A stretch of DNA of 32,679 bases from Caulobacteraceae bacterium (GTDB lineage Bacteria; Pseudomonadota; Alphaproteobacteria; Caulobacterales; Caulobacteraceae), in contig PLSW01000222.1 of assembly GCA_003165275.1 (NCBI GenBank), forward strand, positions 1 through 32,679, read 5' to 3'. This document shows, in pieces, positions 20,051-32,679 of the stretch. The notes below the pieces were generated by a model, which ran no database searches, was not told the DNA's origin, and worked only from the letters and a program-made list of their open reading frames with translations. The translations under genes and the position numbers were made by a program. How positions within the stretch are numbered: position 1 is the stretch's first letter; each line of letters opens with the position of its first letter.

Positions 20051-20182
20051 CTCCACCGTGAAACGGGGGAGCTGTCCGCGAAGCGGACTGAGGGGGCGTC
20101 GGTCAGCGGCACGTACGTCGGACCGACGCCCCCTCCGTCAGTTCGCTACGCTCACTGCCACCTCCCCCGCTACGCGGTGGAG
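20051..20182. repeat. REP-like palindromic element, inverted pair (copy B)
   Basis: Two copies of the family face each other: a left copy from CTCCACCGTG to GAGGGGGCGTCGGTC and a right copy, reverse complemented, ending CGGTGGAG at 20182. Together they form a long imperfect palindrome. It sits in the region upstream of ptrB and immediately downstream of the yebC stop, so it may act as a transcription or mRNA-stability barrier between them. Confidence 0.8.
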
Positions 20183-20199
20183 GACAGCGGCAAGGCCGG

Positions 20200-30580: not shown

Positions 30581-31417
30581 ATGCGCTTTGCCTTCTTCGG
30601 CGATGTCGTCGGCCGTTCCGGCCGCGACGGCCTCGCCGACCACCTGCCCGACCTTCGCCGCCGCCTCGGCCTGGAGTTCGTCATCGTCAACGCCGAGAAC
30701 GCCGCCGCCGGCTTCGGCATCACCGAGAACACCGCCCGCGAGCTGTTCGCGGCCGGCGCCGACTGCCTGACCCTGGGCAACCACTCCTGGGACCAGAAGG
30801 AAGCGCTGACCTACATCGTCCGCGAACCGCGGCTGATCCGGCCGGTGAACTATCCGATCCTGTCCGACGCTCCGGGCCGCGGCTCGCAGCTGTTCGAGAC
30901 CGAGCGCGGCCTGCGCATCCTGGTGATCAACGTGCTCGGCCGCGTGCACATGGACGCCCTCGACGATCCCTTCGCGGCGGTGGAGCGGGAGCTGAACGCC
31001 TGCCCCCTGGGCCTCGCCGCCGACGCCGCCGTCGTCGACATCCACGCCGAGGCCACCTCGGAGAAGATGGCCATGGGCCATTTCTGCGACGGCCGGGCGA
31101 GCCTGGTGGTGGGCACCCACACCCATGTCCCCACCGCCGACTGCCAGATCCTCAACAACGGCACCGCCTACCAGACCGACGCCGGCGCCTGCGCCGACTA
31201 CGACAGCGTCATCGGCAACCAGAAGGAAGAACCCCTGCGCCGGTTCACCACCCGCATCGCGGGGGGGCGCTACAAGCCCGCCGAAGGGCCAGCGACGGTG
31301 TGCGGCGTCTATGTGGAGACCCACCCCAAGACCGGCCTCGCCCTCCGGGTCGAGCCGATCCGCATCGGCGGGCGGCTGAGCGAGACGGTGCCGGTGGTGG
31401 CGCTGGAACGGGCGTAG
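30581..31417 (+). CDS. YmdB-type metallophosphoesterase (TIGR00282)
   Basis: A 278-aa phosphoesterase of the family whose Bacillus member YmdB is a 2',3'-cyclic nucleotide phosphodiesterase. The metal-binding motifs are complete: MRFAFFGDVVGRSGRDGL, FVIVNAENAAAGFGIT, TLGNHSWDQ, VVDIHAEATSEKMAMG and VVGTHTHVPTADCQIL. Length is typical. It begins one base after the fthC stop, a tight operon with likely coupling. No signal peptide, so cytoplasmic. The physiological substrate in this group is not known; regulation of RNA turnover is the hypothesis from Bacillus. Confidence 0.94.
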   Translation: MRFAFFGDVVGRSGRDGLADHLPDLRRRLGLEFVIVNAENAAAGFGITENTARELFAAGADCLTLGNHSWDQKEALTYIVREPRLIRPVNYPILSDAPGRGSQLFETERGLRILVINVLGRVHMDALDDPFAAVERELNACPLGLAADAAVVDIHAEATSEKMAMGHFCDGRASLVVGTHTHVPTADCQILNNGTAYQTDAGACADYDSVIGNQKEEPLRRFTTRIAGGRYKPAEGPATVCGVYVETHPKTGLALRVEPIRIGGRLSETVPVVALERA

Positions 31418-31453
31418 GGAGGGGACCCTTTCCTGGCCGGGGCCGGCGTTTTT

Positions 31454-31514
31454 CTCCTCTCCCATTCATGGGAGAGGTGGCGCGAGCGCAGCGAAGCGAC
31501 GGAGAGGGCAAGTG
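31454..31514 (+). repeat. REP-like palindromic element, copy C
   Basis: CTCCTCTCCCATTCATGGGA begins a short hairpin, followed by the GCGCGAGCGCAGCGAAGCG segment and GACGGAGAGGGCAAGTGG. It lies downstream of the phosphoesterase stop and may serve as its transcript end. The stretch 31418-31602 holds no gene. Confidence 0.75.
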
Positions 31515-31602
31515 GCGGCGCGCGCGCACCTGCCCGCCGCCTCATCCTGAAATTCGCGATGCTGACGCCTTGGGGCGAGGATGATGAAGGCCGCCAGGGC
31601 CC

Positions 31603-32532
31603 CTACCCGCTGGACAGCGGGTCCGGCGGATCCCCCTCGGCCCCCCACATCGCCGGATCGTCCGGATGCAATATCGCCACCCCGCCCCGCCAGCCCCGCG
31701 GCTCCACCCGGGGATCCCCGAACGGCGAGCCCTCGGCCATTTCCTCGGCCTCCTCCACCGCCCAGTCCCGATCCTTGAACTTCGACCAGTCCGGGGGGAT
31801 CACCCCCAGCCGCCGGCAGACCCGCAGCACCATCCGGCCGATGGGATATTCCACCGTGTCCGACGGCTCCCAGTCCAGCAGCCGCTCGCCAAGCACCCGG
31901 CCCACGTCCTCGCGGGTCTCGTCGTCGTGCCCGGCGTCCGCCAGCACCTCCTGCACCACGCCCACGATGATCAGCTTGCGCTGCACCAGCCGCATCAGCC
32001 GCAAATTCAGCCGCGCCCGATGCTCCGGATTCAGCTTCCGCTCCGTGGCCGCGTCCTGGGCGCCCGCCGCCGCCCGATCCCCCACCGCCCCGGCCGGCGC
32101 CCCCGCCGCCAAAGCCCGCCGCTCCCCCCGAAGCCGCGTCTCCAACATGGCCGTCAACCGCGCCATGCGCGCGTAACGCCCGAAAAGGGTGTCAGCTTTC
32201 TTAGCTCCTCCCCCGCAAGCGGGGGAGGTGTCGCGGCGCGAAGCGCTCGCGACGGAGGGGGCAAGTGTCTCATCGGCGCCCTCGCCACCAGGGGCCGCAG
32301 CCCCCTCCAACCCCGCCGTCTCCACCGCCGCCGCCGCCCGAGCCAGCCCCATCGCCAGCCCCCGCAACTCCTCCATGTCGACGATCTGCGCCGACAACGC
32401 CGCCGCATCCTCCGCCGCCCACCGCTCCGCCGCCTCGGCCAGCCAGCCGCCATCGCCCGCGCGGCCCCTCTCGGGACCGTCGCCGCGCTCCGCCGCCATC
32501 CGGCGCGGATCCAGGAGTTGGCTCAGCTTCAT
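31603..32532 (-). CDS. Conserved-looking protein of unknown function, probable SOS gene
   Basis: A 309-aa soluble protein that I do not recognise. The start is taken as ATG 32532 (MKLSQLLDPRRMAAERGDG), directly downstream of a LexA box; a frame extension to 32670 would read through the promoter. The first 90 residues are alanine-rich helical (ALSAQIVDMEELRGLAMGLA). An insert at about 90-113 (LAPSVASASRRDTSPACGGG) is encoded by a palindromic repeat. The second helical part (FGRYARMARLTAMLETRLRG) follows. Then NPEHRARLNLRLMRLVQRKL leads to a charged C-terminal half with ETREDVGRVLGERLLDWEPS and VCRRLGVIPPDWSKFKDRDW. No catalytic motif is evident. It is transcribed away from the window edge. Confidence 0.75.
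   Translation of the reverse strand: MKLSQLLDPRRMAAERGDGPERGRAGDGGWLAEAAERWAAEDAAALSAQIVDMEELRGLAMGLARAAAAVETAGLEGAAAPGGEGADETLAPSVASASRRDTSPACGGGAKKADTLFGRYARMARLTAMLETRLRGERRALAAGAPAGAVGDRAAAGAQDAATERKLNPEHRARLNLRLMRLVQRKLIIVGVVQEVLADAGHDDETREDVGRVLGERLLDWEPSDTVEYPIGRMVLRVCRRLGVIPPDWSKFKDRDWAVEEAEEMAEGSPFGDPRVEPRGWRGGVAILHPDDPAMWGAEGDPPDPLSSG
32205..32267 (-). repeat. REP-like palindromic element inside a coding sequence, copy D
   Basis: CTCCTCCCCCGCAAGCGGGG, then the GCGGCGCGAAGCG core and GACGGAGGGGGCAAGTG. It has the same layout as copies A, B and C but lies within the minus-strand gene at 31603-32532 and keeps its frame open, adding about 21 codons. GACAC occurs on both flanks (minus strand, near 32188-32192 and 32268-32272), a possible short target duplication. 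Confidence 0.8.
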
Positions 32533-32533
32533 A

Positions 32534-32548
32534 GAACAAAGCAAGAAC
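32534..32548 (-). promoter_or_regulatory. LexA (SOS) box, alphaproteobacterial type
   Basis: On the minus strand GTTC-TTGCTTT-GTTC fits the alphaproteobacterial LexA consensus GTTC-N7-GTTC exactly. It ends one base before the ATG at 32532, so LexA would cover the -10 region and start site. Confidence 0.75.
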
Positions 32549-32571
32549 AGCATATTCGGGTGGGTTGTCAA
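32549..32571 (-). promoter_or_regulatory. Promoter -35 and spacer for the SOS-type gene
   Basis: A perfect TTGACA lies at 32566-32571 on the minus strand. Seventeen bases further is GTTCTT, which overlaps the LexA box and would serve as a weak -10. Transcription would begin within a few bases of the ATG, implying a leaderless or nearly leaderless mRNA. No ribosome-binding site is visible, in agreement. Confidence 0.5.
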
Positions 32572-32679
32572 GATCGGGGCGCATCCGATCGCCCTCGCCA
32601 CTTGCGCGTGGCGCGCCGCCTCACCCCGCCTGCGTGGTTCGAGACGCTCCCTGCGGTCGCTCCTCACCATGACTAATAC

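Follow-up and report, generated by a model that had tools for sequence, protein, structure and literature searches.

Can a piece of non-coding palindromic repeat become ordinary protein sequence, and by what route? The question is posed by a stretch of 32,679 nucleotides from a Caulobacteraceae bacterium (contig PLSW01000222.1 of assembly GCA_003165275.1; the whole stretch analysed is called the window here), in which a preliminary description had proposed that a palindromic element, a copy of a genomic repeat, lies in frame within a protein gene between two GACAC flanks and recalls the palindromic elements of Rickettsia. The gene, P0001, is one of a close group of five dispersed genes in its own genome: C250 (the window gene, L001), C91 (L002, 76% identity), C5 (L003, 68%), C330 (L006, 77% across the C-terminal part, a partial comparison) and C339 (L014, 65%, the gene being cut by the contig end). 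In the window gene the element is read in frame, and C91, C330 and C339 have element sequence at the corresponding position; what began as non-coding repeat has probably become part of a protein, in a flexible linker.

A REP-like half unit inside a reading frame

The features on which the argument draws, all on the minus strand, are these.

31603..32532, minus: P0001, protein gene of 309 aa (open frame and translation)
32534..32548, minus: LexA-like box GTTC-N7-GTTC, directly 5' of the start codon (sequence)
32566..32571, minus: TTGACA, a -35-like hexamer (upstream sequence; also 5' of L002, L003, L006 and L014)
32207..32266, minus: REP-like element, type 2 half unit of 60 nt, corresponding to P0001 residues 90-109 (matches to intergenic copies and two hairpins)
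32207..32228, minus: 3' hairpin CCTCCCCCGCTTGCGGGGGAGG, with a rare GC-type loop (folding and sequence)
32230..32253, minus: inner hairpin GTCGCGAGCGCTTCGCGCCGCGAC, its first 23 nt identical in paralog L014 (folding and comparison)
32189..32193, minus: 3' GACAC, lying in the codons for a conserved Asp-Thr (sequence; conserved in L002, L003 and L006)
32265..32269, minus: GACAC on the 5' side, in part the element's own CAC end (sequence)
31456..31514, minus: second element copy, intergenic, with the softer stem CCTCTCCC, 3' of the P0001 gene (sequence and repeat match)

The frame of P0001 begins with an ATG directly 3' of the GTTC-N7-GTTC box and runs uninterrupted from 32532 to 31603 with the element inside it, as the preliminary description had it. 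Read on the minus strand, the element is ACTTGCCCCCTCCGTCGCGAGCGCTTCGCGCCGCGACACCTCCCCCGCTTGCGGGGGAGG, beginning ACTTGCC and ending GGGGGAGG, and it encodes residues 90-109, LAPSVASASRRDTSPACGGG, in agreement with the inserted peptide first put forward. Alignment to intergenic copies gives a score of 82 against a shuffle maximum of 34 (n=200), which upholds the further claim that the segment is a copy of a genomic repeat. The window copy folds into two hairpins over 59 nt (-37 kcal/mol, z -4.98), a stability equalled by 0 of 200 shuffles, and is open in all six frames; the mean across 49 distinct trimmed copies is 4.6 of six.

The flanking GACAC pair is present on both sides, as reported, but it is no insertion footprint, because its copies lie 76 nt apart (no multiple of three), the left copy overlaps the end of the element and 17 of 54 other distinct copies are alike. 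That left, 5' copy consists of a GA from the gene and the CAC with which the element usually ends: of the 54 other distinct element copies, 52 have an A immediately before CTTGCC, and 39 have a C at the next position outward. A 5-mer common to both flanks, when the same freedom is allowed, is what the 17 copies share. We accordingly rejected the pair as a target-site duplication.

P0001 has no match in Pfam (E up to 1), four proteins, P0001 included, have none in NCBIfam (E up to 1), and P0001-P0003 have none in PHROGs, where P0005 drew two weak rows (best E 0.12). A search of 31300-32679 for known RNAs returned one sub-threshold snoRNA match, away from the REP-like element. Modelled alone with AlphaFold2, P0001 shows a coil at residues 77-111 flanked by helices at 53-76 and 116-142, in a model that is poor overall (mean pLDDT 46); the family alignment has a linker of differing length between the helical parts. 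The coding score of the N-terminal arm is weak (0.07-0.08), against a reference of 0.30-0.59 from the seven window genes used for training.

The box at the start of the gene recurs through the family. Of 16 family loci, 10 have GTTC-N7-GTTC, which we take to be the alphaproteobacterial LexA consensus, at the start codon or just 5' of it; in a second locus set, 14 of 15 (12 of 13 in other genomes) have the box with a start codon shortly after it. The loci concerned are L001-L006, L014, L016-L019 and L097-L111. Over 137,075 bases of background the box occurs four times, probably counting the one in the window. Among members with a full frame in a second genome of the genus (G001), the box is present in one of nine. 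Judged by these motifs, the genes look like a dispersed SOS-controlled protein family. At a further locus (L005, contig C364), the frame opened by the ATG behind the LexA-like box soon meets a stop (ATGAAGATGAGCTAA), and the gene is open again from further on.

A dispersed repeat and a dispersed gene family

A 15-nt seed from the element end finds 72 matches in the 4.97 Mb of the own genome (at most one mismatch), and the reversed pattern finds none. These matches fall at 46 places, 26 of which hold head-to-head pairs. Chance seed matches do exist: two of the 46 places lack any hairpin, and at L093 and L094 the element is likewise absent by inspection. In the other four genomes of the genus the seed has 2, 1, 2 and 0 matches, against 0, 1, 2 and 1 for a control pattern; in exact form it occurs in 39 of 390 family genomes, the own genome included, with 36 there and at most six in any other. 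A test for reading frames spanning a copy with both arms coding (at least 30 codons per side), run over the 46 type-2 places and 25 of the places of the related type-1 repeat, gave two positives only, L094 and, weakly (0.08 and 0.22), the window copy; in a stricter version with a threshold of 0.1 the window copy failed (0.07, 0.22). L094, within a gene that is presumably atpD, was rejected as a second mid-gene copy, being a chance seed match with no element present. By this test the window copy is the only mid-gene copy among the 46 seed places.

A RAYT was considered as mobiliser of the element and rejected, the Y1 transposase (PF01797) having no match in the own genome (G000), where a miss is possible because the assembly is 91% complete; the same domain is found in one of five genomes of the genus and five of 14 control genomes. 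Other repeats in the material include a second stretch, palindromic by inspection and starting GTCGAGAGC, GCTCAGAGC or GTTCAGAGT, that interrupts the element at roughly one internal point in L006 (C330), L066 (C119), L069 (C140) and L080 (C362). The window itself holds an inverted pair of 68 nt, 87% complementary, at 9-76 and 20119-20186, the former, at the contig end, being a copy of the related type-1 repeat. Near the left contig end lie an inverted pair of 28 nt (131-158 and 201-228, 96%) and a direct repeat of 62 nt (214-275 and 2684-2745, 87%).

The gene family is spread through the genome as well, with 15 matches to P0001 at E 1e-3. DNA similarity to the window copy within the close group begins 40-50 nt 5' of the gene, and the members therefore look like dispersed gene copies carrying their own promoter; C5 and C330 have somewhat more than 100 nt of upstream sequence in common. 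At E 1e-20 the close group was found in one of 299 family genomes, the own genome (seven candidates scored per genome), and two scans of genome_contigs and one of viral_contigs contained no member. A profile search at E 1e-6 found the family in eight of 390 family genomes, seven of them with distant members only (five candidates scored per genome). Since the close group was found in no other searched genome, an alignment of relatives was feasible on paralogs only. Counted over the whole protein family, the genomes of the genus have 15 matches (G001), 14 (G000), and 5 and 4 in two others; G004 has none at E 1e-5.

The element is a REP-like repeat inside a gene, and in-frame palindromic repeats are already known from Rickettsia and other bacteria. 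It is a short palindrome in many copies, mostly extragenic and often in head-to-head pairs, as REP-like repeats in general are; we do not assign it to the RPE, the GTAG/CGTC REPs or the CIR, because the defining features tested differ. In the accessible parts of the sources, the Rickettsia RPE (Ogata et al. 2000, via PMC2229807 and PMC3733652) is described as palindromic, also intergenic, and fused in frame in protein genes; its units measure 105-146 bp, lie in 19 reading frames and are tolerated rather than clearly useful, with gmk as the example (PMC2229807). The likeness to Rickettsia that had been suggested thus holds for the outcome, a dispersed palindromic repeat read in frame in a protein gene, but not for the extent, with one gene here carrying the element mid-gene against 19 there, as far as that text goes; by the published descriptions, a unit of 60 nt and a single gene family, as opposed to several unrelated genes, set the present case apart.

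GTAG/CGTC REPs lie inside ORFs in several genomes and commonly form head-to-head dimers, like those at the 26 places here; many intragenic copies are in DNA synthesis or repair genes, and in Xanthomonas recB roughly one and the same site is occupied by different REPs (PMC3733652). The part of that source available to us defines them by an unpaired tag at one stem end, with CGTC stems of 8-9 bp starting AT. Compared by description, the stem here starts CC, the GTC within CCGTCGC pairs as part of the inner hairpin, the window gene holds a single half unit with no dimer, and G000 has yielded no Y1 transposase. The Caulobacter CIR is likewise a small alphaproteobacterial repeat with two stem arms, and is described in the portion of PMC2229807 at hand as about 110 bp long, containing GANTC, not inside genes and with stops in six frames; 32207-32266 has no GANTC on either strand. 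Enterobacterial RU elements (103-168 bp; PMC2759123) and Coxiella QMITEs (PMC5896051) are, in what is accessible of these reports, small, non-autonomous and found in frame inside genes, several of them for hypothetical proteins. They resemble the present element in this but are longer and belong to other lineages, and the same accessible text mentions no decay series among paralogs. A literature search by titles and abstract openings, with most subscription journals outside its scope, found nothing on this element or the P0001 family.

The insertion site in the paralogs

We compared the linker of each gene with the intergenic copies against 200 shuffles per linker. No shuffle reached the score of C250 (82), C91 (81 over 63 ungapped nt), C330 (48) or C339 (47), and eight distant family members, serving as controls, stayed at shuffle level throughout (86-184 of 200) and hold no element sequence. 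The null for C330 is the stricter one because, its left linker anchor missing, it was scored on a 1922-nt stretch, with the match at L006:1792, which is gene nucleotide 292.

Each copy is in a different state. The genes in C250 and C91 align without a gap over 81 nt (63 of 81 identical), equal in length and with the frame kept, and the hairpin in C91 is weak (-25.8 kcal/mol, z -1.62), the strong hairpins having gone: in C91 the palindrome is lost and the frame retained. The 3' loop, GCTTGC in C250 and ATCAAT in C91, is wholly different amid similar sequence. In C330 a nested stretch, judged palindromic by eye, comes after the element sequence, and the N- and C-terminal halves of the gene lie in different frames. 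C339 has the start of the element, including 23 nt of inner stem that match the window copy exactly, before the contig ends inside the element. C5 is 12 residues shorter at the site and probably holds a shortened remnant, as the sequence of its linker suggests; one of three comparisons backs this, the first 21 nt after the site matching the C250 element in register at a level reached by 18 of 5000 shuffles. It might instead be an element-free linker, because significance is reached neither in a free search (27 of 200 shuffles) nor when the comparison in register uses the element as it stands in C91 (2665 of 5000).

Neither the close paralogs, all of which carry element sequence, what is probably a remnant, or a break at this position, nor the other genomes searched yielded a clean empty site. 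The expectation that relatives would lack exactly this segment was thus not borne out, the close paralogs carrying it in several states. The situation named beforehand as speaking against insertion, a conserved peptide with no palindrome, does occur, in C91; since a 63-nt match to the genomic element remains there, we read it as a decayed copy and not as a refutation.

Divergence bears on the age of the insertion. For the pair C250 and C91, dS is 0.51 and dN 0.21 in the insert (rough values, from 21 codons only), 0.31 and 0.20 in the N-terminal part, and 0.36 and 0.14 in the C-terminal part; the insert has diverged about as far as the rest of the gene, and would therefore have been present before the duplication and be about as old. 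Replacement change is at least at the level of the insert in 96 of 285 sliding windows of 24 codons, and dN/dS is 0.41 in the insert against 0.40 in the C-terminal part. Nothing marks the insert as selected; it evolves much like its surroundings. For the N-terminal part dN/dS is 0.65 between C250 and C91 and 0.40 between C250 and C5, and its aligned gaps in the five close paralogs (15, 9, 15, 15 and 27 nt) are multiples of three.

Proposed history and its rivals

The reading we favour, and consider fairly probable as a whole, is that one REP-like half unit entered the linker of the ancestor of the paralog group, where it was tolerated, copied and then left to diverge as a near-neutral extension. 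A half unit of the repeat would have entered once, in the ancestor of a small paralog group within a LexA-boxed family, at a low-complexity linker between two helical parts. It was presumably tolerated because it is G+C-rich, about 60 nt long and free of stops in most frames, and because its site lay in a flexible coil; most likely the insertion is older than the duplications. The gene would then have been copied around the genome with its promoter and the copies would have diverged separately, C250 keeping its hairpins, C91 decaying to ordinary coding sequence, C5 probably shortening, C330 acquiring a nested palindrome with its halves out of frame, and C339 being met by a contig break. The 20 encoded residues are most likely a near-neutral linker extension.

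The loops bear on whether the copies have been left to themselves since. The contrast of GCTTGC and ATCAAT is poorly explained by point-by-point decay because the surrounding sequence is similar; the GC-type loop of C250 is otherwise found at two places among the matches listed (C57, GCATGC; C72, GCTCGC/GCGAGC), the AT-type loop of C91 is close to the common ATAAAT and ATGAAT, and this difference and rarity may reflect exchange with intergenic copies. Renewal or replacement of the in-gene copies by gene conversion with intergenic elements, or several insertions at one site, would also suit the near-consensus palindrome retained in C250 and the nested stretch of C330, at about the same internal point as the interruptions in intergenic C119, C140 and C362. 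We nevertheless think it unlikely, since C250 and C91 align ungapped with an insert divergence resembling the gene's, a distinctive inner stem is common to C339 and C250, and repeated insertion at one site in the same orientation would be improbable unless the element preferred that site. A bolder form, based on the loop swap and the nested palindrome, makes the element a repeatedly refreshed cassette, paralogs of a DNA-damage-controlled family renewing their in-gene repeat from the intergenic pool; this is a distinctly speculative idea, and if true it would mean that the linker of a lineage-expanded protein set is continually rewritten from the REP pool.

Translation might start downstream, or the gene be a decaying pseudogene, so that the element sits in a dead or untranslated stretch: the halves of C330 in different frames, the early stop after the boxed start codon in C364, the higher N-terminal dN/dS between C250 and C91 and the weak coding score all fit, but the lower value between C250 and C5, N-terminal gaps that are all multiples of three, a window frame open throughout, and the LexA-like box and -35-like hexamer preceding the ATG of residue 1 make this improbable. 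Selection of the 20 residues or of the mRNA hairpins for a new function, be it protein innovation or mRNA control, draws on the intact and strong hairpins of C250; with the hairpin weak in C91, the linker shorter in C5 and the dN/dS of the insert no lower than that of the C-terminal part, we give it very little credence. It is harder still to believe that the resemblance is convergence or that the dispersed element originated from the gene. Of the five genomes of the genus, it is true, only this bacterium's own has the element and the close gene group in abundance; against this, the dispersed copies form head-to-head pairs at 26 of 46 places, exact seeds occur in 38 other family genomes and the close group was found in none of them (five candidates scored per genome), and eight distant gene-family members are without element sequence.

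On the history of a single tolerated insertion, what is unusual is that several stages of decay coexist within a single genome, the family concerned having a LexA-like box at its start. The locus adds one genome to the list of in-frame palindromic insertions, here in a gene with such a box, and a LexA-boxed host gene agrees with a remark in the accessible text of PMC3733652 that DNA repair genes hold many of the intragenic REPs. Within this one genome the series runs from an intact palindrome through decayed in-frame coding sequence and a probable partial deletion to disruption, a path by which a non-coding repeat can turn into ordinary protein sequence.
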